Assembly (NCBI RefSeq): GCF_016756315.1
Contig: NZ_AP024235.1
Span: 3,100,001-3,164,000 of the forward strand
DNA from: Alteromonas sp. KC3
GTDB taxonomy: Bacteria > Pseudomonadota > Gammaproteobacteria > Enterobacterales > Alteromonadaceae
Direction: 5' to 3'
Length of the DNA: 64,000 nt
How positions within the stretch are numbered: the first letter of the stretch is position 1; every line of letters begins with the position of its first letter. Positions 36,511 through 50,933 of the stretch are shown here, in pieces. The translations under genes and the position numbers were made by a program. Below the pieces are notes generated by a model that saw only the letters and a program-made list of their open reading frames with translations, made no database searches and had not been told where the DNA came from.

Positions 36511-37386
36511 ATGTCCGCATTACCTACTTTAACACCCACTGTACAGTCTCGTATAGTTCCTATTTTTTCTGGTGGTGGCACACGTTTAAGTGCACATATC
36601 GGTATCATATCAGCGCTGCAGGACATGACCATAGGTTTCGATACTCTGGTCGGAGTGTCTGGAGGTTCTATTATTGCCTCTTTGTATGCCAAAGGTTACT
36701 CGGTAAGTGAAATGCGAGAATTAGCGCTGCTTACTGACTTCAAACAATTCACTGACTTTTCGTTAATACGACTGTTACGCGAAGGGGGGCTTTCTTCGGG
36801 TGATGTGTTTCAAAAATGGATTGATGCCCAGCTTGAGGGAGCGACTTTCGAAGATTTGTCTCTGGATCTCCACATTCTTGCGACTGACGTAAACGGCGGC
36901 GGCCCGGTTTTATTCAATAAAAAAAACGCTCCACAAATGAAAGTTTCAGAAGCGGTGCGGTATTCCATGTCTATACCGCTTATTTTCTCATTTAAACCGT
37001 TTAAAGAGCACCTTTTGGTGGATGGTGCCATTTTGTCTGAAGACGCGTTATTTGAGGATTGGCGAGGTGATGGCACACCTTCAGTGTGCTTTAGACTTCA
37101 AAGCACCGAACAAAAGCGCAAAGCAATAAAGAAAAACGTTCTACAACTCCCTCAGTATGTTGGCATGCTTATTCGTACATTTATGACAGCAATATCCAGA
37201 GAATATGTAAATGCTAAGTATTGGCACAATACCGTTGTTGTAAATACTGGCGATATTTCAGCAGTAGACTTCTCTCTGTCTCCGGAAATAAAGAATACGC
37301 TATATGAGATGGGGTATAGGACAACGAAAGAGTTTCTACCCAAAAAATGTGCAGGACTTATGGCTTATGAGTCAACGCATCTATAA
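36511..37386 (+). CDS. patatin-like phospholipase
   Basis: 291 residues. The oxyanion hole GGGTR (21-25), the nucleophile elbow GVSGG (S50) and the catalytic aspartate in LLVDGA (D171) form the Ser-Asp dyad of patatin-like lipid acyl hydrolases. There is no signal peptide, so it is cytosolic or membrane-associated. Similar proteins (RssA, CapV) act on phospholipids. The neighbourhood does not reveal the substrate, and it has no CBASS-type partner gene, so a defence role is not supported. It converges with the epimerase gene. Confidence 0.88.
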   Translation: MSALPTLTPTVQSRIVPIFSGGGTRLSAHIGIISALQDMTIGFDTLVGVSGGSIIASLYAKGYSVSEMRELALLTDFKQFTDFSLIRLLREGGLSSGDVFQKWIDAQLEGATFEDLSLDLHILATDVNGGGPVLFNKKNAPQMKVSEAVRYSMSIPLIFSFKPFKEHLLVDGAILSEDALFEDWRGDGTPSVCFRLQSTEQKRKAIKKNVLQLPQYVGMLIRTFMTAISREYVNAKYWHNTVVVNTGDISAVDFSLSPEIKNTLYEMGYRTTKEFLPKKCAGLMAYESTHL

Positions 37387-37484: not shown

Positions 37485-38501
37485 CTACACCTCGTAGAAG
37501 TTGCGGTACCAATCGACAAATGCATTAACGCCTGTCTCAACATCAGTACTTGGCTTATAACCCGTATCTTTTACCAGTGATGAAACATCTGCGTAAGTGT
37601 CAGGTACATCCCCAGGCTGCATTGGCAACAAATTCTTCTTCGCTTCAATGCCTAATGCATTTTCTAGTGTTTCAATGAATTTAAGCAAGTGTACCGGCGT
37701 TTGCGCGCCAATATTGTACACTTTATATGGCGCCTTACTTGTACTCGGGTCAGGGTTGGCACCATCCCAGTTGTCATTTGGTTTCGCTACGTTATCGAGA
37801 GAACGTACTACACCTTCGACAATATCGTCTATATAAGTAAAATCACGGCGATGATTCCCGTAATTGTATACGTCTATAGTCTTACCTTCTAAAATAGCCT
37901 TCGTGAACTTAAACAGCGCCATATCAGGGCGGCCCCATGGGCCATACACGGTGAAAAAGCGCAATCCTGTAGTTGGTAAGTTGTAAAGATGGCTATAAGT
38001 ATGCGCCATTAATTCGTTAGCTTTCTTAGATGCTGCATAAAGACTAACCTGATGATCTACATTGTGCTGTTCCGAAAACGGCATAGTCTCATTGGCGCCA
38101 TACACCGAACTTGAAGAGGCATACACCAGGTGTTCAACGTTATTGTGACGACAACCTTCTAAAATATTACCGAAGCCCACAATGTTTGAATCTATGTAAG
38201 CGCTTGGGTTTTCAAGTGAATAGCGAACACCAGCTTGTGCGGCAAGGTGTACAACTCTATCAAATTTGTGCGCTTCAAACAGCGAAGACATTTTTTCACG
38301 CTCTTCAACGCCCATTTCAACAAATGAAAACAAGCTAGAGGCATCTGAAGCCTTCAATTGGGCCAAGCGCGCGTGTTTTAAGTTCACATCGTAATAGTCG
38401 TTTATGTTATCAATACCGACTACTTCGTCACCTCTATTAATAAGGTATTGTGATACTGCTGCCCCAATAAACCCGGCAGCGCCGGTGACTAAGATTTTCA
38501 C
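37485..38501 (-). CDS. NAD-dependent epimerase, UDP-glucuronate 4-epimerase type
   Basis: 338 residues, extended short-chain dehydrogenase. The NAD-binding GAAGFIG is at 7-13, the catalytic SVYGANETMPF region near 131, and the Tyr-x3-Lys is Y155/K159 (SLYAASKKANE). The stretch RPDMALFKFTKAILEGK is typical of UDP-GlcA to UDP-GalA epimerases. It would supply galacturonate for the surface polymer. It starts 28 nt after the nucleotidyltransferase gene ends, so it is the last gene of the Tat/PqqD/HprK operon. Confidence 0.87.
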   Translation of the reverse strand: MKILVTGAAGFIGAAVSQYLINRGDEVVGIDNINDYYDVNLKHARLAQLKASDASSLFSFVEMGVEEREKMSSLFEAHKFDRVVHLAAQAGVRYSLENPSAYIDSNIVGFGNILEGCRHNNVEHLVYASSSSVYGANETMPFSEQHNVDHQVSLYAASKKANELMAHTYSHLYNLPTTGLRFFTVYGPWGRPDMALFKFTKAILEGKTIDVYNYGNHRRDFTYIDDIVEGVVRSLDNVAKPNDNWDGANPDPSTSKAPYKVYNIGAQTPVHLLKFIETLENALGIEAKKNLLPMQPGDVPDTYADVSSLVKDTGYKPSTDVETGVNAFVDWYRNFYEV

Positions 38502-38529
38502 TTTTCTCTCCCAAAAATATTAGCGTGAG

Positions 38530-39648
38530 CTATTTAGATGTCCCTTCAGTTTCGAAGACGTGCTTTCCAAAAATTTGCTCTATAAGTGCTCTAATCGACT
38601 TAACAGAAAGATGATAAATCAGCAGCATCAATGGCATTTTGCACCAGTGTCCCCTGACCCAAGCCATAAAGCTAGCAATATTCCTGCCTTTTACGTCACA
38701 CAATGGATGATGAGGCGATAAAGCTTTGTCCATAAAGCTGTCCAACACGAAAAGCTTATGAGCTGTGTAAGGTATATCTTGCGTCAGCTTGCTGGGCAGT
38801 GGAAAACCTAGCTTCTTGCTACTGTAACGGCAAGCCAAAAATAACTCGCGGTAAAAACCGGTTTCTTTCGCTAAACCAATAGCTTCGTCCCAAAAGTCAT
38901 CGTCTCCAAAGTCTGCAATTAGAGACGCTATGTCATAAAGATCGCGATGCGCCTGTTTGAACGTCTCGTTAAATATTAAATGGATACACGAGTGCACAAG
39001 CATTGCATGCGGCTTTAGTACTGTAACGCCATTGACTTCCATTGTTTGTGCAAGAAACGCATTAATGTCGGGCGCTTTCCCTGAAATGGGCGGTACCAAA
39101 TTATGATGGATATCCACCACCGTCCCTCGCCTAGATTGCACCAATGGAGGGATCTCATGTGCCCACTCTCGATAATAGCGCTCGTCATGGTCATTAATAG
39201 GTTTACTCATCCAACCTTTGAATAAAAGGCTCTTTTCCACTTTCTCCAAGCAGTTTTTAGGTACCAGAACGTCAATATCTGAAAACAATCGTCCCTTTGC
39301 CACTGACAAATCTGCTAAGCAATAAGCAGCGCCCTTTAGATAAAGGCATTGTGGTGTAACCGCTTGAATTGAGCTCGACAATAGTGAAACCTCATACTTC
39401 AAATGGTCGGCTTGGCGATTTGCCATTATTCGCGCATTCTCTAAATGTCCTCTTACGACACTGGGAAACGTGTCTAATAAACCATGCTCTTCACTTTTAA
39501 ATGCGAACAGTGCTAACAAGCGCTCAAATCGCAAAATTTTAATGAAGCTAGACCACCAAGCGTCGCTTTTATCAAGGCAAGAAGCTGGGTTTAATACCGC
39601 ATCAATAAATGCTTGTTCTGTGATCGTCTGTTTATGAGAGGACATCAT
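38530..39648 (-). CDS. nucleotidyltransferase family protein (NTP_transf_5 type)
   Basis: 372 residues. The region YLKGAAYCLADLSVAKGR followed by LFSDIDVLVP (D124, D126) is the metal-binding nucleotidyltransferase signature of the PF14907 type. The remainder is helical with conserved HDERYYREWAHEIPP and VDIHHNLVPP. Such proteins occur beside PqqD-like and HprK-like genes in exosortase loci (the HPr-rel-A set) and in some lasso-peptide clusters, and the reaction here is unknown. The start is at one of two adjacent ATGs (39648, 39645), inside the end of the kinase gene (17-nt overlap), showing translational coupling. Confidence 0.8.
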   Translation of the reverse strand: MMSSHKQTITEQAFIDAVLNPASCLDKSDAWWSSFIKILRFERLLALFAFKSEEHGLLDTFPSVVRGHLENARIMANRQADHLKYEVSLLSSSIQAVTPQCLYLKGAAYCLADLSVAKGRLFSDIDVLVPKNCLEKVEKSLLFKGWMSKPINDHDERYYREWAHEIPPLVQSRRGTVVDIHHNLVPPISGKAPDINAFLAQTMEVNGVTVLKPHAMLVHSCIHLIFNETFKQAHRDLYDIASLIADFGDDDFWDEAIGLAKETGFYRELFLACRYSSKKLGFPLPSKLTQDIPYTAHKLFVLDSFMDKALSPHHPLCDVKGRNIASFMAWVRGHWCKMPLMLLIYHLSVKSIRALIEQIFGKHVFETEGTSK

Positions 39649-40501
39649 TTTCCAAGAAACTCTGGAGCTCTTCCAAATTATTATACCTAACTTCAAAGGT
39701 CTTACTTTTCTCTACTAAGTTAGTTAGCGTAGAAAAGCCCAAACCGCCTAAAACACCATAATTGAAGGCATTAGTAGTAAGCGTTGAAAAAGCCTCTGCT
39801 TTACTTAATTCATAAATATCACAATACGTATCAGCTGAGTACTGAGGATAGACAATTGCAACTACTTCAGCCTTTTCCCGACGCGCGTCCCAAGAAGCTG
39901 TTGGTGGAGATAAATGAACGACATCGCCTTTGTGTGTATTAGGTGATATATGAGAAAAGCGCCCCGAAGGAAACCATGACTTGGCTAAATTAATCGCATT
40001 ATTTTTTAGGCAAATGGGCCGTACAAATGGCGTTACCTCAGTAGTATTAGGTGTCATTAGAGCCATTTCATCGGAAAGCAGACGCCAGCCATTGTGACTG
40101 AGCCAACTTGTAAGTGTACTTTTGCCAGAACCAGGTGGTGCAGGAAACAATATCGCTTTGTTATTTTTTGCCAGCACCGCAGAGTGTAAAATTACATGCC
40201 TAAACTCGTGAGCACTTACTATCCAATTGAGTCCCCACTCGAACATGGCGAGCGATTTATCAGATGGCATGGGTAAAAACGGTTCTCGCTGGTCACAGAA
40301 AAATTGTGTTTGTGGTTTTAGCAAGCGCCGAAGCAGGCTGGCATGTTTAATTTCTACATCATAGGTGGGCAGCGTCAGCGTTGAATCATCTCGCAAAACG
40401 TCGCCATAAAGCATTTCAATGCTGTCGGCTACTTGCGGTATGTCTGTTTTTATTGCAAAGGAAAATGGATGGGTATCCAGCAAAAAACTACTTAATGCCA
40501 T
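39632..40501 (-). CDS. HprK-related kinase A
   Basis: 289 residues. The P-loop is APPGSGKST (121-129), preceded by HSAVLAKNNKAILF, with a Walker B-like LLSDEMAL (D144, E145). This matches the C-terminal kinase fold of HPr kinase/phosphorylase but not its N-terminal domain, and no HPr gene is nearby. The family seen in exosortase/PEP-CTERM loci is called HprK-related kinase A. In lasso-peptide clusters, related kinases phosphorylate the peptide, so the substrate here may be a peptide or protein rather than HPr. It overlaps the PqqD-like gene by 10 nt and the nucleotidyltransferase gene by 17 nt. Confidence 0.85.
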   Translation of the reverse strand: MALSSFLLDTHPFSFAIKTDIPQVADSIEMLYGDVLRDDSTLTLPTYDVEIKHASLLRRLLKPQTQFFCDQREPFLPMPSDKSLAMFEWGLNWIVSAHEFRHVILHSAVLAKNNKAILFPAPPGSGKSTLTSWLSHNGWRLLSDEMALMTPNTTEVTPFVRPICLKNNAINLAKSWFPSGRFSHISPNTHKGDVVHLSPPTASWDARREKAEVVAIVYPQYSADTYCDIYELSKAEAFSTLTTNAFNYGVLGGLGFSTLTNLVEKSKTFEVRYNNLEELQSFLENDVLS

Positions 40502-40722
40502 TCTGCTTTAATAAATCCTTTTTTGACGAGCGCCTTTCTGACTTGCTCAGCATTCTCGTCCACATTTTCATTCGCCTCAAATGCGTTTATTAAACTTTGA
40601 GGACCCACTGTTGCAACGAAAACTTCATTACTAAATGTAGAATAAATCGTCATTCCACTATGATCAGAAAAGGCGTGATAAATCACGCCTTTTTCAAAGT
40701 ACAAATGCAGACCATTACACAT
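40492..40722 (-). CDS. PqqD-like small protein (HPr-rel-A system)
   Basis: 76 residues. The pattern (two N-terminal strands HLYFEKGVIYHAF, TIYSTFSNEVFVA, then two helices ending VRKALVKKGFI) fits the PqqD winged-helix fold, which binds leader peptides and presents them to modifying enzymes (an RRE domain). No PQQ synthesis genes adjoin it. Start and stop both overlap neighbours: 8 nt with the Tat-exported protein gene upstream and 10 nt with the kinase gene downstream. I infer that it brings a substrate, possibly the upstream gene product, to the kinase. Confidence 0.75.
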   Translation of the reverse strand: MCNGLHLYFEKGVIYHAFSDHSGMTIYSTFSNEVFVATVGPQSLINAFEANENVDENAEQVRKALVKKGFIKAEWH

Positions 40723-41386
40723 GATGGTCCACTAAGAATGTAGCTAACTCTTCTGCTACAGCTTTCTCATTGCCACTAGCGTTATTGTGCAAATATCTTG
40801 CAAACTCGTACTCATCAGCGAACAGACCCGGATTGCTCGACCCGCCGAGACTAGAATTAAATGTCTTTAGAATTGGAAAATGAATAGTTTCACCACCAAT
40901 AGTCTGGCCGTGGTTTGCAGCATTAAGGATCATCTCTGCAATGTAACAATTGATATTACTAGGCCCAGAACGCTTGCCTTTAATATTGCCGTCGCCACCA
41001 CCAACATTTTTTATTACTTCATAAAGCGTGACATCTAGCATTTCAGAATTCGTAAGAATATCGCCATTTTTATGCTTCATGATACCGGCATTACCATAAC
41101 CAAATGGTTTGTTACCCGTGTATTGAGAGTACTTTGCATTGATTGAAACTGCGCCCCAATGACTCGTCCAGTTCTTCCACTTTCCAGGTGAAAGTAGAGC
41201 AATCGGAGTTGTTCCAGCATAATCAGAACCGTGACCTGATGCGGCGATGGAACCAGCAATTAGAGAGTCCTGCCCCCACACTGATGCAGCAGGAAGTGAC
41301 GCTAGGATTGCGCCAGCAGATGTTCTCTTTAAAAACTTACGACGAGAGCTTCTTTTCGCTTCATCGTTTTTATTCATATTGTCCAT
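40715..41386 (-). CDS. Tat-exported protein of unknown function
   Basis: 223 residues from the ATG at 41386, preceded by GAGGA; other possible starts are GTG 41395 and ATG 41377. The twin-arginine motif is SSRRKFLKRT, followed by a hydrophobic segment ending LPAASVWGQ, a clear Tat signal. The mature part has no family I recognise. It has Gly/Asn/Ser-rich stretches (VGGGDGNIKGKRSGPSN, SSLGGSSNPG) and a helical end (FARYLHNNASGNEKAVAEELATFLVDHHV split after ASGNE). It is the first gene of the PqqD/kinase operon and divergent from a flavoprotein gene. It could be the modified substrate of the trio or an exported cofactor-carrying subunit. Confidence 0.7.
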   Translation of the reverse strand: MDNMNKNDEAKRSSRRKFLKRTSAGAILASLPAASVWGQDSLIAGSIAASGHGSDYAGTTPIALLSPGKWKNWTSHWGAVSINAKYSQYTGNKPFGYGNAGIMKHKNGDILTNSEMLDVTLYEVIKNVGGGDGNIKGKRSGPSNINCYIAEMILNAANHGQTIGGETIHFPILKTFNSSLGGSSNPGLFADEYEFARYLHNNASGNEKAVAEELATFLVDHHV

Positions 41387-41432
41387 TCTAACCACATCCT
41401 CAAAGACTTAACTCAACTACGATTGCATACTT

Positions 41433-41448
41433 TGCAAAAATCAAGCCA
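41433..41448 (-). promoter_or_regulatory. putative sigma-54 promoter of the Tat/PqqD/HprK operon
   Basis: Read leftward: TGGCTTGATTTTTGCA. GG and GC are exactly 10 nt apart and the -12 box TTGCA is perfect; the -24 box TGGCTTG departs from TGGCACG at two positions. It lies 46 nt before the start codon, similar to the other two sigma-54-like sites in this window. Confidence 0.5.
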
Positions 41449-43373: not shown

Positions 43374-44150
43374 CTATAAGCCGTGCTGCTTCAGTAATGA
43401 CAATGCATGAGTAATTGGGATTGCGTAGCTAATACCGCTTGGCGCTGACAATGCCGACTCTTTACCTTGACTGACAAATACCTTGTTAATCACGCCAACC
43501 GCGTGTCCTGTTTTGACATCATAAACTGGGCTTCCAGAGTTCCCTGGATACGCAGTGGCATCGAGCTGATACACTAATTCAGGTTGCTTTAAGCGCTTGA
43601 GCATACTAACTGTTAACTGATCTGCATTTTGCGCAGGTATTGCGTCTGGTGTGATAGCCGAGATCATTCCTTTGTGGGTAGCAGGATATAGCCCTATCGC
43701 AGCACCTATTGGGAACCCAGTGAATGCAACATCAGTCCCCGGGGGCAGCAAAGCGCCCTCTGCTAGATTGACTGGTTTCAATTTACCTTCGAACTTTAAT
43801 ACGGCGAGGTCGTGCACAGGGTCGATACCCAACACCTCAGCTTTATAGGTTTTAACGTCTCTGCCCTCCCCCGAAATAACGACAAAATACTGCACAATTG
43901 TTGGGTCGAGGATCTTTGATACAACGTGATAATTCGTAATAACATGTTTGCCATCAGCAACTACAAATCCCGTCCCTAAAACCTGATTGCCGTTCGCTTC
44001 AAGCGGTGTATAAAGCCCAATGGCTACTACAGACGGCGTGACTTCTTTCACTACCTCAGGAAACACCGCAAACGCTTTAGCGCTAAAAAGCATAAAACTG
44101 AATACAAATGAAGTTAGCAGGCGACGAGTAAATATCGTAGTCTTTGCCAT
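43374..44150 (-). CDS. exported trypsin-like serine protease
   Basis: 258 residues after a Sec signal (LLTSFVFSFMLFSAKAFA). The catalytic triad is visible: H75 in VITNYHVV, D114 in DPVHDLAVLKF and S205 in YPGNSGSPVY. The fold is that of the DegP protease domain but without a PDZ domain. Serine proteases of this kind are often found in exosortase/EPS loci. I start at ATG 44150 (MAKTTIF), preceded by AAAGGAG; a further ATG at 44180 would overlap the divergent gene. It converges with the flavoprotein gene. Confidence 0.87.
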   Translation of the reverse strand: MAKTTIFTRRLLTSFVFSFMLFSAKAFAVFPEVVKEVTPSVVAIGLYTPLEANGNQVLGTGFVVADGKHVITNYHVVSKILDPTIVQYFVVISGEGRDVKTYKAEVLGIDPVHDLAVLKFEGKLKPVNLAEGALLPPGTDVAFTGFPIGAAIGLYPATHKGMISAITPDAIPAQNADQLTVSMLKRLKQPELVYQLDATAYPGNSGSPVYDVKTGHAVGVINKVFVSQGKESALSAPSGISYAIPITHALSLLKQHGL

Positions 44151-44178
44151 ACATACTCCTTTTAAAGTTAAATTAAAC

Positions 44179-44928
44179 ATGGAATTACTTAAGCTTATAG
44201 TGGTTGAGTTGGTATCACCACTAAAGTTTTCATTCTTACTAATGCTCTTAGCGCTGCTATTAAAAATAATGAAGCGTGAACGGGGCTGTTACTGTGTGAG
44301 TATATTTGCAGTAGCGTGGTTGTTACTTTGGTCGCAACCCTACGCTAGTAAGTTACTGCTAAGCAAAGTGGAGTATCAATTGCCCACTCACGACGATACC
44401 TCTCTTGATAGTCCTGACTACATTTTTGTTCTTGCTTGCTATTACAATACCGAAGGCGCTCTACCAGAAATAAGCCGGTGGCAAGAGTGCTCATTGCAAA
44501 GGAATGTAGAAGCAGCGAGACTTCACTTCTTAACAAAGGCGCCAATAATAATCAGCGGCGGCTATTTCTTAGACGACGAGAAAGTCAACTTCAGCGACAA
44601 AGCCGCAGATTTTTTTCAATCGTTAAACATAAATGCATCTGAACTTATTCTTACACGTCAAGGAACAAACACTCATGAGGAAATTGTTTCAGTAAAACCA
44701 TACATTACTGATAAGAACATCTGGGTTGTTTCGTCAGCTAGTCATATCGCTCGAATTAAACTGGAACTTGGATCGACTGCAAATTCAGTAACGTACTTTC
44801 CGGTTGATTACCATCACAATGGCGACACAACATTTTTCATCACATGGCCTTCAGAAGAGTCACTTCAAAATGCGAGGAGGGGGTTATACGAACTTTTGGC
44901 GAGAGTTAAATATAAACTGCTAAATTAG
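44179..44928 (+). CDS. YdcF/ElyC-family membrane protein (DUF218)
   Basis: 249 residues. Two N-terminal membrane helices (LKFSFLLMLLALLLKIM, YCVSIFAVAWLLLWSQPYA) precede a periplasmic DUF218 domain with YIFVLACYYN, RNVEAARLHFLTKAPIIISGG, GTNTHEEIVS and VVSSASHIARIK. ElyC affects peptidoglycan or envelope polymers in E. coli. I start at ATG 44179, which gives the expected N-terminus. The frame is open further upstream, but that would run through the start of the divergent protease gene. Only 28 nt separate the two divergent starts. Confidence 0.82.
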   Translation: MELLKLIVVELVSPLKFSFLLMLLALLLKIMKRERGCYCVSIFAVAWLLLWSQPYASKLLLSKVEYQLPTHDDTSLDSPDYIFVLACYYNTEGALPEISRWQECSLQRNVEAARLHFLTKAPIIISGGYFLDDEKVNFSDKAADFFQSLNINASELILTRQGTNTHEEIVSVKPYITDKNIWVVSSASHIARIKLELGSTANSVTYFPVDYHHNGDTTFFITWPSEESLQNARRGLYELLARVKYKLLN

Positions 44929-45044
44929 TGAGTTATACGAAAGTAGTGAATAGAATAAAGTGTGACTTATAACGAATTATTGGTTCCGCATTGTAAAGAT
45001 AATCTGCTAAGCTTAGAAAACGTTAAAAATAAAAATGATTGTGT

Positions 45045-45872
45045 ATGAGTAACCAGAAACAGAAAAGCGTACTCGATAGAGTCACTCAACTTGTGGGTAA
45101 AAATAACAAGTTGGGCAAGTTGTTGTCTGGTTACAGCAAGCTTAAAGAAGCTAGCTATATCTCAACGCATTTCTCGACCTACCTCACGCCCTGTGTTGCG
45201 CTTGAAGAAGAGCTTCGTAAAGAAGTATTCAAGATTAGACATAACGTTTACTGTGAAGAGCTTGGGTTTGAGCCAATAAAAGATGATGGATTAGAACTCG
45301 ATGAGTTTGACGCCTTCTCACTACACTGCTTAATTCAGCACGTAAGCTCAAAAAACTATGCGGGCACAGTGAGAATAGTTCGACCTACTGAACCCCATCA
45401 ACAGTTGCCTATAGAAAAGTACTGCTTAAATTCAATTACCGACGACAAACTGAATCCAGCGAATTTCGCCAGAGAAGATGTGTGTGAGGTATCAAGGTTG
45501 GCAGTACCCAAGCAGTTTAGACGCCGTCAAATGGATAACCATGACGGTGCAGCGGTTGGTATCATTAACCAACAAACCTATTCAGAAACTGAGTTGCGCT
45601 GCTTTCCGTTTATTGCTGTCGGATTGTATTTTGCAGCCGCTGGCTTAACGATAGAGAATAATATTAAACATGCCTATGTAATGATGGAGCCTAGATTAGC
45701 GAGAAGCATGGGCTTTGTGGGTATTAAGTTTCAGCAGATTGGCCCTGTGATTGACTATCACGGAAAGCGCGCCCCTTATTACATAAATCAAAAACTTTTA
45801 GAAACTAGTCTTTCACCTAGCTTTGCCAAAATGCTTGCTGATATACGGAAAGGGTTAAATCAAAAACATTGA
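45045..45872 (+). CDS. PEP-CTERM/exosortase system-associated acyltransferase
   Basis: 275 residues, a GNAT-fold protein like N-acyl amino acid synthases. Conserved parts are EVFKIRHNVYCEELGFEP, LHCLIQHVSSKNYAGTVRIV, CEVSRLAVPKQFRRR and MMEPRLARSMGFVGIKFQQIG. This family accompanies exosortase / PEP-CTERM loci; its reaction is not established but is probably acyl transfer from acyl carrier protein. I use the ATG at 45045; a TTG two codons earlier is less likely. No clear ribosome site is visible. A terminator follows 28 nt after the stop. Confidence 0.85.
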   Translation: MSNQKQKSVLDRVTQLVGKNNKLGKLLSGYSKLKEASYISTHFSTYLTPCVALEEELRKEVFKIRHNVYCEELGFEPIKDDGLELDEFDAFSLHCLIQHVSSKNYAGTVRIVRPTEPHQQLPIEKYCLNSITDDKLNPANFAREDVCEVSRLAVPKQFRRRQMDNHDGAAVGIINQQTYSETELRCFPFIAVGLYFAAAGLTIENNIKHAYVMMEPRLARSMGFVGIKFQQIGPVIDYHGKRAPYYINQKLLETSLSPSFAKMLADIRKGLNQKH

Positions 45873-46039: not shown

Positions 46040-46912
46040 TTATGCTTTACGACGAGTCATCGCACCTAGACCAACTAGCGCTAGACCAAACATAGCGATA
46101 GTAGAAGGAGCAGATACTGTAGCAGCTTCAACGTTACCAGAACCACGTACGCTGTACTCAGAAATGTTTAGGTCAGCAGGTGAAGCAGGAGCACGGCTGT
46201 TATCGTCGAAAGTAGACGCTAGACCAAATGCATCAGCTTCATACGCACCAGCGAAGAAGTCAGAGATGAAGTTAGACTCAGCGATACCGCCAATTACTTC
46301 ACCGTAGAACAATGTTGTACCAGAGATTAGTGGCTCACCAATGGTTGCATATGCTGGGTCAGCATAGTATTGGAAGTCACGTAGGTTTAGGCTTAACCAT
46401 AGGTCGCCGTCAACTGCGCGCGCAGCGTGGTCAGTCGCGTCAGCAAAGTTATCCATTTGCGCTTCGTCGAATGCACCGCCTGTTTGAGCGTAATCAACAT
46501 AAATGTTCAACCAGCCGTTAGTAGAGTCGATTGGCGCATTCGCATTTTGAGGGTCAAAGAATAGACCACCAAAGCTGAATGTAAGCTCACAACCATTACA
46601 GTTTGGCTCACCTAGACCATTACCTAGGTTGAATTTACCAGCACCAACTAGCTCTGGTGCATCACCACCTGCGTAAGCATTAGAAATGCTTGAAAGAGTT
46701 GGAGAAATTGTTTCAGCTGAAACAGCAGTATTTAGGTCAGCAACACCAGTAGTGTTAGTAACTGTCCACCACTGTGTGAAATCGATAGTAGCGCTAAAGT
46801 TTGGAAGTCCACCATCTACTTCCCAAGACACACCACCAGCTGCACTTACTACACCAGCGTTCGCTGCAGAGCTTGCTGCTAACATTGCGGTTGCTAATAA
46901 TAATTTTTTCAT
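46040..46912 (-). CDS. exported protein with PEP-CTERM-like sorting tail
   Basis: 290 residues. There is a Sec signal (MKKLLLATAMLAASSAANA), then an acidic, Gly/Ala/Asn-rich extracellular body with a CNGC pair near residue 105. The C-terminus is VSAPSTIAMFGLALVGLG followed by AMTRRKA, a PEP-CTERM-like tripartite signal with SAPS in place of PEP. I use ATG 46912, preceded by AGGACG; earlier in-frame starts would destroy the signal peptide. It is probably cut by an exosortase and released into the matrix. A near-perfect sigma-54 promoter precedes it and a terminator follows. Together these suggest a well-expressed single gene. Confidence 0.85.
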   Translation of the reverse strand: MKKLLLATAMLAASSAANAGVVSAAGGVSWEVDGGLPNFSATIDFTQWWTVTNTTGVADLNTAVSAETISPTLSSISNAYAGGDAPELVGAGKFNLGNGLGEPNCNGCELTFSFGGLFFDPQNANAPIDSTNGWLNIYVDYAQTGGAFDEAQMDNFADATDHAARAVDGDLWLSLNLRDFQYYADPAYATIGEPLISGTTLFYGEVIGGIAESNFISDFFAGAYEADAFGLASTFDDNSRAPASPADLNISEYSVRGSGNVEAATVSAPSTIAMFGLALVGLGAMTRRKA

Positions 46913-46959
46913 AACGTCCTCATTAAAAGAAAATGGTTTCATTCTATCGATATTAGTAA

Positions 46960-47044: not shown

Positions 47045-49759
47045 TTAAACAGGCTTGCTATTTAGAATGCGATTAATTTCCTTATCCAACTCAGCTGAAC
47101 GTCCAGTAAGTGGAGACAACATATTCTCAGCACGGCCCATTTTACCAGCTGAAACCAACGCTTCGGCATAATGCAACAATATAGAAAGGTTGGTTGTAGC
47201 CAAGTTGTGTGCCTTATTCAAGATAGCTTCAGCCTCAACCACGCTATCTAACCTTAGGTAAATCATACCTAGGGTATCGAGGTAATCAGGGTTATCCCCT
47301 TCTATTTTTACTGCTCGCTCAGCGTATTCTAGTGCCTTATCATTTCTTGAATTAACATGATGCAACCACGCTAGATTATTAAGCACCATCGCACTTTCAG
47401 CGCCATTTCTTAACAGTCTTTCATAATGCATGATTGCTTTGTCATGATCTGTTTTTATATAAAGCTCTGCAACATATAGAGAAACACGTGGATCAACACC
47501 ATTTGTATTTATGTAATCTTCACAAGCTTGAGTTGCCTTCTCTATCGCTTTTTGACCGCGATACGCCTGAAGCAACAACATGAGCGAGTCATATGTCTTG
47601 TATTCGTTATAATACGATTCTAATTTCTCTTGAGCTTCATCAAAATTCTCATCAGCTAGCGCGAGGCGTCCAGCAATGAGGTTATATGGCAACCCAGCTT
47701 GTGCTAATGAAGGCGTGCTATTTATGATTTTTCTAGCACCGCGAATGTCATTGGTGCTTAATAAGGTCGACGCTAGTAGCAGTTTGATATCGTTATCATT
47801 TGGAAATGCCAACTGTGCTTTTCTTAGAATACGTACTGACTCGGCGTAATCGCCATCTGCCTCGAACAAATTTGAAGCCAGTAACACAGCTGGCTTGTAA
47901 TCAGGAACAATTGTCACCCATTTTTTTGCGAGTTTTTTTGCAGCTTCATCATTACCTAGTACAGACTCAGCCTTGATCAACGTTAGCCAAAATATAGGTT
48001 TTGCAGCACTATCGACCGAAAAGTCAGACAGAACACGTTTTGCTTCAGACGCTTGCCCCTGATTGAAAAGTTCTGATGCATATAATGAAGCTATGTTTAC
48101 ATTTTGCTCTTCTTGCTCATAAGTGCGTTTTAAAAACGTAAGTAATTCTTCGTCTCTTTCCATAGAAGACAGCACTTTTATATGTGTGGTCACCGCAATT
48201 ACTGAGCCTGGTATTTGATTTTGCAGACGCTCAGAAAACGCAAGTGCTTGTTCATACTGTTCCGCCTCAATATTCTCATTAATAAAATAGAACAAGGCTG
48301 GAAGCGAATTTTCGTCAAGCTCAAACAACAAATTGAATTTTTCAGATACATCTGGAGCTTCTTGCTTTAACGCAATAAATGCTTCGATCACTTTGGCGGT
48401 ATAAAGGGTTTCTTCAGACTGTGCAAAGTCATCTGCAATCTTCCCAGCTTTATCAAATTCATTGCGAGACAGGTAAAAAGAGGCCAATGCAGTTTTTACT
48501 GAATCAGAAGATTGCGCCTCATCGAGAGATTCTAAGTTAGCTAGTGCATTCAAATCATCTAGAGCAAGTTTATTAATATTGAGCTCAACAAAAGTGTCAG
48601 TTTCACCCTCAACTAAGTTGTCAAAGCGTTTTAGCACTGAAAGTGCCTCATCTGATTTATTAGTGCTAGATAACGCCTTTGCTGCAGATGTGTAGAGCGG
48701 CAAGTCACTGAGCGAAACGTTATTCATTTCTTCTAACGCTGAAATCGCTTTTTCCTTATACCCAAGGGCTAGCAGCGTCGATGAATAAATACGATACTCT
48801 GGAGAATCTTTGCTTAACACTCCAGCAATCGATTCGAAGTGATTGTGTGCCTGCTCAAACGCTTCAAGGTTGTAAGCGCTAATTGCAGCTATCAAACGCG
48901 TTCTAGCATTATCAACACCGTTTTGTATTGCTTTCTCGGCAAACGATTTACTATTTTCAAAATCTTGTTTTTCAAAACTAACAACCGACTTGAGGTAGTT
49001 TAGGAAACCTTGGTCTGGATATTTTTTTAATAGTGGCGTGATTTTAGATTCTGCTTTTTCAAATTGCTTGTTTCTTACTAAAGCGTCCGCGTTTAATATT
49101 TGAAACATTGCAGACTGCCCAAACGCGCTCGCTAGCTTAGCAACAGCATCGAGAAAGACCTCGTGTCTACCTTCATACATAGAGTATGTCGCTAGTTCAT
49201 AGAAATATTCGTTGTCGTCACCGTCCTTTGCACTTTCTATACAATCAACAGTTGTAGTGGCACCGCGCTTTGCCGCAGATATACATTCAGCGACTTTGAA
49301 AAAACCTTTTGAATCGGGAGTGGATTCGGGCATATCAGCATCGCGCCCTGCTTTGCTAGCATAATAGTACGCAAGGTCTTTCGGTAACTTGCTCTCATGT
49401 GAAGACAGTACATTATTTATCTGTTGAAGGCTGTCAGTAAACAGCAAAGACTGAAGCCAGTACCTAACTGTGGTAGCGTCAATATCATCTGCATTTTTTA
49501 GCTTTTCAAACTCTTTAAGCGCACTTTCAAACTCACCTTGGAAATAATAAGCGGTACCAAGTTGCAGGCTTGCAGCACTGGATGTACCGCTATCCAGAAG
49601 TACATTCTTGGCAATGAGTTCTGCTTTTTTATATTCCCCTTGCTCGATAGCCTGTTGAGCTTGTTTCAACTGTTCTTCAGAAGTTTCACTTGAACATCCG
49701 CTGATAGATAAAGTACCAGCAACAACAGCTGAGAGAACGCTAAGTCTGAAAGGTGACAT
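47045..49759 (-). CDS. PEP-CTERM system TPR-repeat lipoprotein (PrsT type)
   Basis: 904 residues from ATG 49759. The signal ends in the lipobox SISGC, with SSETSEEQ after. The rest is continuous tetratricopeptide-like helical repeats, such as QLGTAYYFQGEFESALKEFE, NLAWLHHVNSRNDKALEYAE and YLDTLGMIYLRLDSVVEAEA. Length and architecture fit the PrsT family of exosortase loci, thought to scaffold export of polymer or protein at the periplasmic face. The gene follows the glycosyltransferase gene after 10 nt. The frame is open 27 codons further upstream, which would overlap that gene and lose the signal. Confidence 0.85.
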   Translation of the reverse strand: MSPFRLSVLSAVVAGTLSISGCSSETSEEQLKQAQQAIEQGEYKKAELIAKNVLLDSGTSSAASLQLGTAYYFQGEFESALKEFEKLKNADDIDATTVRYWLQSLLFTDSLQQINNVLSSHESKLPKDLAYYYASKAGRDADMPESTPDSKGFFKVAECISAAKRGATTTVDCIESAKDGDDNEYFYELATYSMYEGRHEVFLDAVAKLASAFGQSAMFQILNADALVRNKQFEKAESKITPLLKKYPDQGFLNYLKSVVSFEKQDFENSKSFAEKAIQNGVDNARTRLIAAISAYNLEAFEQAHNHFESIAGVLSKDSPEYRIYSSTLLALGYKEKAISALEEMNNVSLSDLPLYTSAAKALSSTNKSDEALSVLKRFDNLVEGETDTFVELNINKLALDDLNALANLESLDEAQSSDSVKTALASFYLSRNEFDKAGKIADDFAQSEETLYTAKVIEAFIALKQEAPDVSEKFNLLFELDENSLPALFYFINENIEAEQYEQALAFSERLQNQIPGSVIAVTTHIKVLSSMERDEELLTFLKRTYEQEEQNVNIASLYASELFNQGQASEAKRVLSDFSVDSAAKPIFWLTLIKAESVLGNDEAAKKLAKKWVTIVPDYKPAVLLASNLFEADGDYAESVRILRKAQLAFPNDNDIKLLLASTLLSTNDIRGARKIINSTPSLAQAGLPYNLIAGRLALADENFDEAQEKLESYYNEYKTYDSLMLLLQAYRGQKAIEKATQACEDYINTNGVDPRVSLYVAELYIKTDHDKAIMHYERLLRNGAESAMVLNNLAWLHHVNSRNDKALEYAERAVKIEGDNPDYLDTLGMIYLRLDSVVEAEAILNKAHNLATTNLSILLHYAEALVSAGKMGRAENMLSPLTGRSAELDKEINRILNSKPV

Positions 49760-49769
49760 GTTTAAATTC

Positions 49770-50849
49770 CTAATTCTTATTGTAGTAAATTGATGTATAG
49801 CGAGCAGACATGGCTTGTAGCGAGTAACTGCTCTTAACAAGTTCGAATGACTTTTTTATTTTTTCTTGTTGTTCAGGCAAGTATTGTAAGGAGCGTAACA
49901 AATGATCTGCTAACTCCTCTGCCTTGCCGGGCGATGAATATGCAACGTAAGTGTCGTCAACAAAATGCCTTATTCCCCCGACATCCGTTGTTACAACAGG
50001 GCAGCCTACCGCCATCGCCTCTAAAATAGTCATGGGCATGGCCTCATAATGTGAGGACAGTACAAAAACGTCGCTCGTTGTAAGCTGCTCTCGCACATCC
50101 TCACGATACCCCATAAAGTCTACAAATTGTGCAACCTCTAGCTGCGCAGCCTCGCGCTCAAGATTTTCACGTTCAGGACCATCCCCTACTATCTTCAATC
50201 TTGCATTAGCACATTTATCGTGAACAATTTTAAACGCATTGAGGAGCAGAGTTTGATTTTTAACAGGGTCAAGCCTACCTACAGTACAAATAATAGGTGA
50301 TGTGGGAGCCGTTGTTTTTATATTTGAAAGCGAGTCAGGTACTTCAACGCCATTTTGGATAAGGTGTAAACGATTTGGTTTTACACCAACCACCTTTGTT
50401 ACCCAATCCATTAGGTCTTGAGAAACTACAACGTAGTCATTGATGAAGAATGATGACACTTTACGAATAAAGTTATTCTTTTTGTTTAAACCGTCTTGGG
50501 CATCGCCGCCATGTCCGTGATCACTGTGAACGCGCGTCTTTACTCCAGCAAGAAATGCGGTAACGTGATACTCAATAGTTCCGAAGTTGTAGGTATTTAT
50601 TGCATCAGGGGAGATCTTCTTCAACAACTTATATAAGCGATAATGACAGCCTATATCTTTGCCTGGTTTTTTGTCCAAACAGAATATTTCGACGTCGGGA
50701 ATGATACCTGCCGTCATTTCGAACTCAGGAATTAGCGAGATAATGATGTGTTCAACATCTTCGTACGAGCCATTGATGAGATTTACAATTACTTTCTCTA
50801 ACCCTCCGCACCCCATACTGTAAACAAGATGCACTACCTTCTTTTTCAT
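49770..50849 (-). CDS. glycosyltransferase family 4, PEP-CTERM/XrtA-associated type
   Basis: 359 residues, GT-B fold. The N-terminal VVHLVYSMGCGGLEKVIVNLI and the C-terminal ICTVGRLDPVKNQTLLLNAF, FVLSSHYEAMPMTILEAMAVGCPVV (split at MPM) are typical of GT4 retaining transferases. The opening and the SDHGHGGDAQDGLNKK stretch resemble the XrtA-linked sugar transferase family. It probably adds a sugar to the lipid-linked repeat unit in the cytoplasm. Start ATG 50849 has GGTGAG 5 nt upstream. It is in operon with the PrsT-type gene. Confidence 0.88.
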   Translation of the reverse strand: MKKKVVHLVYSMGCGGLEKVIVNLINGSYEDVEHIIISLIPEFEMTAGIIPDVEIFCLDKKPGKDIGCHYRLYKLLKKISPDAINTYNFGTIEYHVTAFLAGVKTRVHSDHGHGGDAQDGLNKKNNFIRKVSSFFINDYVVVSQDLMDWVTKVVGVKPNRLHLIQNGVEVPDSLSNIKTTAPTSPIICTVGRLDPVKNQTLLLNAFKIVHDKCANARLKIVGDGPERENLEREAAQLEVAQFVDFMGYREDVREQLTTSDVFVLSSHYEAMPMTILEAMAVGCPVVTTDVGGIRHFVDDTYVAYSSPGKAEELADHLLRSLQYLPEQQEKIKKSFELVKSSYSLQAMSARYTSIYYNKN

Positions 50850-50933
50850 TGACTCACCGATTCTCATTTTCCATACTGAGGTTAATATGATGCTGGAATA
50901 CTATATTCGATTTAACAGAAGAAAAACATTGTT

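Follow-up and report, generated by a model that had tools for sequence, protein, structure and literature searches.

A four-gene set in an exosortase locus of Alteromonas sp. KC3 that probably makes a modified, Tat-exported surface protein

The nearest experimentally studied parallel to the gene set considered here is found in the LPP systems of Bacillota, which combine an RRE, the HprK-like kinase LppK, and the nucleoside triphosphate (NTP) transferase LppN within capsular polysaccharide loci (PMC13381572). According to the available text of that report, LPP precursors of 35-200 amino acids have a conserved N-terminus and a variable remainder, core Ser3, right behind the leader, is the residue that the kinase phosphorylates, an effect of LppN was not visible in the host used, and LPPs are said to be restricted to Bacillota. 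The kinases of paeninodin and pseudomycoidin are also HprK-like (PMC13381572), and PsmN has been linked to hexoses on phospho-Ser in pseudomycoidin (available text of PMC9266682). Here, we analyzed a window of 64,000 nucleotides from Alteromonas sp. KC3 (contig NZ_AP024235.1, positions 3,100,001 to 3,164,000) that encodes, in series, a protein with a twin-arginine translocation (Tat) signal, a PqqD-like protein, an HprK-related kinase A (HprK_rel_A), and an NTP_transf_5 nucleotidyltransferase. Our reading, to which we give a probability of about 0.68, is that these four genes form one cassette making a modified, Tat-exported surface protein of exosortase bacteria.

Five genes follow one another on the minus strand at 37485-41395 of the window, with overlaps of 8, 10, and 17 nucleotides and then a 28-nucleotide gap to an epimerase gene (Table 1); this gene order and spacing had been claimed in an earlier note made from the letters alone, and our re-measurement agreed with it throughout. 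The first product scores 17.3 bits against the TAT_signal_seq model TIGR01409 (cut-off 16.7). Two ATG codons, at 41386 and 41377, are start sites as plausible as the GTG used here. The genome, a single contig of 4.56 Mb, encodes TatC (PF00902), and export of the protein by a Tat translocase is a prediction from its signal and from this gene. The kinase reaches 298.7 bits against TIGR04352 (cut-off 200), and the nucleotidyltransferase matches PF14907 with an E-value of 2.7e-40.

The pairing of the Tat protein with the other three genes (hereafter, the trio) was measured in 196 genomes of the bacterium's family, from which 86 kinase loci in 85 genomes were fetched with flanks of 5-6 kb. A search with the window's Tat protein alone as query, which is not circular, found 46 places in 45 of the 196 genomes; at 45 of these, HprK_rel_A follows directly on the same strand, with the Tat match 238-1039 nucleotides upstream of it, and the 46th is truncated by the end of its contig. 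The earlier note had named rare co-occurrence of the Tat family with the trio as an outcome that would speak against its proposal, and these counts are the reverse of it. A relaxed finder of Tat open reading frames placed one upstream of the kinase in 84 of 86 family loci, vs 1/86, 0/86, and 1/84 in control stretches. One of its two misses carries the gene, by eye, as a KR variant; in the other (L147, genome G035) the Tat gene is broken. In that locus the kinase gene is broken too, as if the set decays together. A strict regular-expression finder (61/86 family loci; controls 0, 0, and 0) was dropped as too stringent. With a Tat profile, the protein was found upstream at 86 of 86 HprK_rel_A places, a count that is partly circular because profile-building sequences were reused; of its 95 matches, seven lie elsewhere: a single match at the end of a contig, five that extend over no more than the first 46-61 of 211 columns, and one weak match (E 5.7e-4). 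One genome (G149) has two kinases and two complete sets. HprK paralogs scoring below the cut-off served as a further control, and a Tat-like open reading frame stood upstream of 1 of 20, by eye with an ordinary signal peptide. Such sub-cut-off kinases (L309-L328) are common in the family and occur mostly as open frames of about 300-480 amino acids. Gaps among the four genes do not exceed 144 nucleotides in the 80 family loci in which all were picked. These co-occurrence counts confirm that the association is not due to chance.

The association extends beyond the family. Of 398 genomes of the phylum, 61 have a kinase above the cut-off, eight of them in the bacterium's own family, and 52 loci were fetched from the others. 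The relaxed finder gave an upstream Tat open reading frame in 43 of 51 testable loci (controls 7/51, 8/45, and 7/46) and the strict finder in 38 of 51 (controls 0/51, 2/46, and 4/46); two of the eight relaxed misses carry a Tat gene on inspection, L201 and L192, the latter of the clade B type described below and on the opposite strand. In 80 named records (Massilia, Thiobacillus, Methylotuvimicrobium, Photobacterium, Dechloromonas, and others), some of which are apparently the same as family-set genomes, the relaxed finder was positive upstream in 75 of 79 testable loci (controls 10/79 and 8/75). One carrier of the cassette is the environmental bacterium Methylotuvimicrobium buryatense 5G (L289). 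Among the four misses, L278 has a Tat gene on inspection, whereas L256 and L258 each carry two tandem Tat genes directly after the nucleotidyltransferase, some 2.0-3.5 kb beyond the start of the kinase, that share the segment CTISGQ(L/V/I)SGN(T/L)S. Because these copies sit at the other end of the operon, the Tat partner stays in the operon even when its place changes, and the two loci show that the cassette can hold more than one Tat-family protein. By kinase, the nearest named relative among the matches listed is Alteromonas marina, at 81% identity, although very near records were possibly left out. At least 575 kinase relatives were confirmed in bacterial and archaeal species genomes, not each of them held to the TIGR04352 cut-off.

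Among 142 non-redundant sequences (<80% identity, from 162 Tat proteins), R19 is present in 142 and R18 in 141, and the most conserved residues behind the twin arginines are Ser53 (137/142) and Ser49 (137/142, with Thr in three further proteins), followed in the same segment by Ser57 (126/142). In the AlphaFold2 model, residues 47-54 have a predicted local distance difference test score (pLDDT) below 50, so that the serine segment is predicted to be disordered, immediately past the signal. The model has a predicted template modeling score of 0.70; beyond the serine segment lies a mostly confident helical domain, which has a pLDDT of 84-94 in most 10-residue blocks, with lower values (56-77) at 101-120, 131-140, and 181-190, and contains its own conserved positions N158 (127/142), L157 (126/142), and W73 (115/142). 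The helical domain matched no PDB structure with E <3. A comparison of 83 family members with Pfam and NCBIfam gave models of the Tat signal and, besides these, no more than two isolated weak matches, and ten further Tat proteins, five of them from clades B and C, had no match in these databases; PEP-CTERM models were matched by none of the 83 at E 0.01. Besides the Tat signal, clade B (28 proteins) shows invariant cysteines and, at the C-terminus, [ST]CWxS[FLI] in 28/28. Clade C (nine proteins), which we take to be sphingomonad-type, keeps the signal and a post-signal Ser and has TC[FY]ASLQ in 9/9. The Tat proteins of these two clades (L178-L227) look unrelated, and the two motifs are a possible shared C-terminal acceptor motif.

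The enzymes of the set keep residues of catalytic type. In all 86 family loci the kinase has H106, G124, G126, K127, S128, T129, D144, E145, K166, and N247, and thus an invariant Walker A motif with His and Asp; we take H106, the Walker A motif, and D144 to be equivalent to the HprK catalytic residues. Its profile matches the HPr kinase structures 1jb1 and 2qmh weakly (E 0.024), among other P-loop proteins. The nucleotidyltransferase, numbered from its TTG start, has K121, G122, R136, and D142 in 86/86 loci and D140 in 85/86, and therefore the R-x3-D-x-D motif, presumably the hallmark of NTP_transf_5. It adjoins the kinase in 86/86 family loci, 79/79 testable named loci, and 31/49 phylum loci, the last counted with a profile built from the family alone. 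For the PqqD-like protein, the AlphaFold2 model (pLDDT 84.7) has as its best PDB matches the lasso B1 RREs (5v1v, 5v1u, and 6jx3) and the PbtF RRE, and an RRE fold is thus predicted, in contrast to the absence of such a fold that the earlier note had listed as evidence against its idea. Of its 58 aligned counterparts, 15 match TIGR04353 ("HPr-rel-A system PqqD family peptide chaperone") at E <=0.01 (best 4e-17).

The four-gene locus belongs to an exosortase/PEP-CTERM cluster. The window itself holds the exosortase-associated acyltransferase and PrsT (Table 1), and the distance from the kinase to the exosortase gene is 36.5 kb, the latter standing about 12 kb past the window end. An exosortase scores above cut-off in 147 of the 196 family genomes and HprK_rel_A in 85; the exosortase is present in 85 of 85 genomes with the kinase vs 62 of 111 others (Fisher p 2e-15, uncorrected for shared ancestry). 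Among 57 listed pairs of kinase and exosortase that were chosen because they share a contig, 47 are separated by 10-64 kb. The trio had been likened beforehand to the HPr-rel-A set of exosortase loci; the kinase score is in line with this likeness, with the correction that this locus is itself an exosortase locus, which had been left unsaid.

None of 13 other window genes that we compared is as constant a companion as the members of the set, the best reaching 57/86. The epimerase, an ordinary sugar epimerase by its PF01370 match (E 3.8e-56), falls within the range that the earlier note gave for the operon; it directly follows the nucleotidyltransferase in 13/86 family and 8/80 named loci and is not part of the conserved set. 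In the fetched flanks, on either strand, 57 of 86 family loci and 34 of 80 named ones have a gene for a trypsin-like peptidase, at a median offset just upstream of the Tat gene, and its product may process the exported Tat protein.

Table 1. Features of the cassette and its surroundings, in window coordinates
Feature	Position	Strand	Remarks
Tat-exported protein	40715-41395	-	226 amino acids from GTG; proposed substrate; without own Pfam/NCBIfam model
Tat signal region, residues 1-41	41273-41395	-	R18 R19; cleavage region SVWG, site placed by eye
Ser49-x3-Ser53-x3-Ser57, predicted acceptor segment	41225-41251	-	from conservation and low pLDDT
Helical domain, residues 61-224	40724-41215	-	mostly confident; SPGKW 69-73, LNA 157-159
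PqqD-like RRE protein (fold predicted)	40492-40722	-	76 amino acids
HprK-related kinase A (HprK_rel_A)	39632-40501	-	289 amino acids; TIGR04352
NTP_transf_5 nucleotidyltransferase	38530-39648	-	from ATG; PF14907; longest open reading frame begins at TTG 39696
NAD-dependent sugar epimerase	37485-38501	-	PF01370; neighbor, no conserved member
Patatin-like phospholipase	36511-37386	+	near cassette in 28/86 family loci
Trypsin-like peptidase	43374-44180	-	PF13365, E 7.8e-25; recurrent neighbor
PEP-CTERM/exosortase-associated acyltransferase	45039-45872	+	TIGR03694, 250.9 bits, cut-off 111.95
Protein with PEP-CTERM-like end	46040-46942		below curated cut-offs
XrtA/PEP-CTERM TPR protein PrsT	47045-49840	-	TIGR02917, 329 bits, cut-off 312.2

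Because the Tat protein, in the many environmental bacteria that have this set together with the exosortase surface-sorting system, is almost always encoded beside the chaperone, the kinase, and the nucleotidyltransferase, the data suggest that it is the substrate these enzymes modify. In the sequence of events that we infer, the PqqD-like RRE would bind, in the cytoplasm, the N-terminal leader of the Tat protein (its Tat signal region), HprK-related kinase A would phosphorylate the conserved serines just past this leader, Ser49 and/or Ser53, and the NTP_transf_5 enzyme would then act on the phosphate by adding a nucleotide or a sugar. The Tat system would export the folded, modified protein, signal peptidase would take off the leader, and the modified N-terminus would reside in the exosortase/exopolysaccharide-related envelope. 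Binding, phosphorylation, nucleotidylation or glycosylation, the order of these events, and the role of the product are each proposed from comparative analysis; the evidence that bears on the cassette directly is its gene content and synteny, the exosortase co-occurrence, the predicted RRE fold, the invariant catalytic-type residues, and the disordered serine segment. The idea advanced in the earlier note, of a phosphorylation or nucleotidyl-transfer system acting on a peptide or protein, perhaps the first gene's product, has gained from the Tat pairing, the RRE prediction, and the invariant residues; membership of the epimerase in the unit is not supported.

Several observations weigh against this proposal. 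Genetic linkage alone is no demonstration of an enzyme-substrate relation. The SxxxSxxxS segment is missing from clades B and C despite the same kinase, and the acceptor may therefore differ there or sit elsewhere. Six of the 51 testable phylum loci (L193, L194, L200, L208, L215, and L226) and one of the 79 testable named loci (L247) contain no recognizable Tat gene in the stretch fetched, the background of the Tat finder is 10-18% in the phylum and named sets, both of them GC-rich, and the reuse of sequences noted above limits the profile counts. The PqqD-like gene was recovered incompletely by its profile (78/86 family, 72/80 named, and 34/51 phylum loci, the phylum count again made with a profile built from the family alone), and some of the family counterparts are very short as picked, at 35-62 amino acids. 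Finally, the window's PqqD-like protein matched no NCBIfam family at E 0.01 and reached no Pfam gathering score.

Alternatively, the trio could modify another protein, such as one of the PEP-CTERM proteins or a small precursor peptide encoded separately; the Tat protein would then be a partner or receptor working with that product outside the cytoplasm. The exosortase found in every kinase-bearing family genome, the nearby protein with a PEP-CTERM-like end, and the quite different Tat proteins that accompany the same kinase in two clades are all compatible with such an arrangement. However, the gaps within the four genes are so small in the 80 family loci noted above that there is no space for a separate precursor open reading frame, none of the other window genes compared is equally constant, and known sets of RRE, HprK-like kinase, and NTP transferase act on a co-encoded precursor, at least as described in the available text of PMC13381572; we consider a target elsewhere rather unlikely. 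Regulation of carbon or nitrogen use through phosphorylation of an HPr-like protein, as by canonical HprK, with the Tat gene linked for other reasons, would draw on the weak profile match to HPr kinase structures, but the RRE partner, the operon structure, and the co-occurrence with exosortase all speak against it, and we give it hardly any credence.

A different possibility accepts the Tat protein as the one modified but makes its product a small one, like a ribosomally synthesized and posttranslationally modified peptide (RiPP): the protein would be modified and then cut, perhaps by the trypsin-like protease, to release a short, phosphorylated N- or C-terminal piece as the active part. A conserved N-terminus with a variable remainder recalls the LPP precursors (available text of PMC13381572), the C-terminal Ser motif of clades B and C resembles the C-terminal Ser of paeninodin (available text of PMC9266682), and the protease gene is a frequent neighbor. 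In the window's clade, however, the remainder is mostly a confidently predicted folded domain with conserved residues of its own, N158 and W73 among them, which counts against a RiPP-like product because a disposable tail needs none, and the protease was not found near the set in 29 of 86 loci. We regard release of such a peptide as improbable. Returning to the Tat protein as an intact, modified substrate, a more specific and frankly speculative form of the proposal, in which we place limited confidence, is that the RRE acts as a Tat proofreading chaperone: before its export, the folded protein would be phosphorylated and then nucleotidylated or glycosylated on the serine cluster next to the Tat signal, and the group attached through phosphate would tie the protein to, or prime, the exosortase-associated exopolysaccharide.

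Part of this system has already been named, as the kinase and the chaperone are covered by the HPr-rel-A models of NCBIfam. The earlier statement that the role of the set appears undescribed needs this amendment, but it holds for the Tat family and for its pairing with the trio: no description of the cassette itself was found in the open-access PubMed Central literature, nor any paper there on PqqD together with exosortase. The terms "HPr-rel-A," "HprK-related kinase A," and "HprK_rel_A" have no use in that literature, outside of which most subscription papers lie, even though relatives of the kinase are widespread. The terms HPr, PqqD, and nucleotidyl are absent from the main text of PMC1569441, and Proteobacteria, Pseudomonadota, and exosortase go unmentioned in the main text of PMC13381572. 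The new elements are the family of Tat proteins, the near-constancy with which it accompanies the trio, the exosortase co-occurrence as counted, and the serine cluster as a candidate acceptor. Now that a partner can be named that is nearly constant and has two almost invariant serines next to its signal peptide, an orphan kinase and nucleotidyltransferase set becomes a question for mass spectrometry.

Compared with known systems, the cassette shares with paeninodin and pseudomycoidin (PadeK, PsmK, and PsmN; available text of PMC9266682) a kinase and a nucleotidyltransferase, which in those systems act on a Ser of a ribosomal precursor. It differs in that the substrate would be an exported protein and in that no lasso macrolactam cyclase or B2 leader peptidase, as had been claimed from the sequence, and no SpI-like peptidase or MsbA-like transporter occurs among the 14 genes scanned at 35.4-52 kb of the window (some with one library; 49770-50867 unscanned). 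The PEP-CTERM/exosortase system (as described in the available text of PMC1569441) provides the genome and locus context, whereas the Tat protein matches no PEP-CTERM model; if our proposal is correct, that exosortase/exopolysaccharide system would be linked to a route of covalent modification. The role proposed for the RRE resembles that of NapD, a cytoplasmic chaperone that stays on the Tat signal peptide of NapA until maturation (available text of PMC3712460), but the cargo is different, RRE binding is a proposal here, and the likeness is one of role and not of compared folds. Should the proofreading version hold, the cassette would be a protein-level relative of RiPP biosynthesis and, in Pseudomonadota, a pathway dedicated to phosphate-linked surface proteins. 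With the HPr-rel-A system (TIGR04352 and TIGR04353) the correspondence is one of components, the kinase scoring above its cut-off and the chaperone model being matched by a minority of counterparts; those names cover kinase and chaperone, and the Tat family, which is without a model of its own, may supply the missing partner. The closest parallel is with the LPPs (available text of PMC13381572), in which an RRE, an HprK-like kinase, and an NTP transferase likewise stand beside a precursor in surface-polysaccharide loci, the Tat protein being the presumed precursor here, and in which the acceptor serine lies just past the leader, as is predicted for Ser49 and Ser53. Unlike those systems, the cassette is found in Pseudomonadota and in exosortase loci, its precursor would carry a folded domain, and a Tat signal replaces the YxxP leader, the YxxPxVLxHQ motif being absent from the consensus of 83 and from the conserved columns of 142 Tat proteins. 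If our proposal is correct, RRE-guided phosphorylation would not be confined to small Bacillota peptides but would also reach a folded protein exported by Tat.

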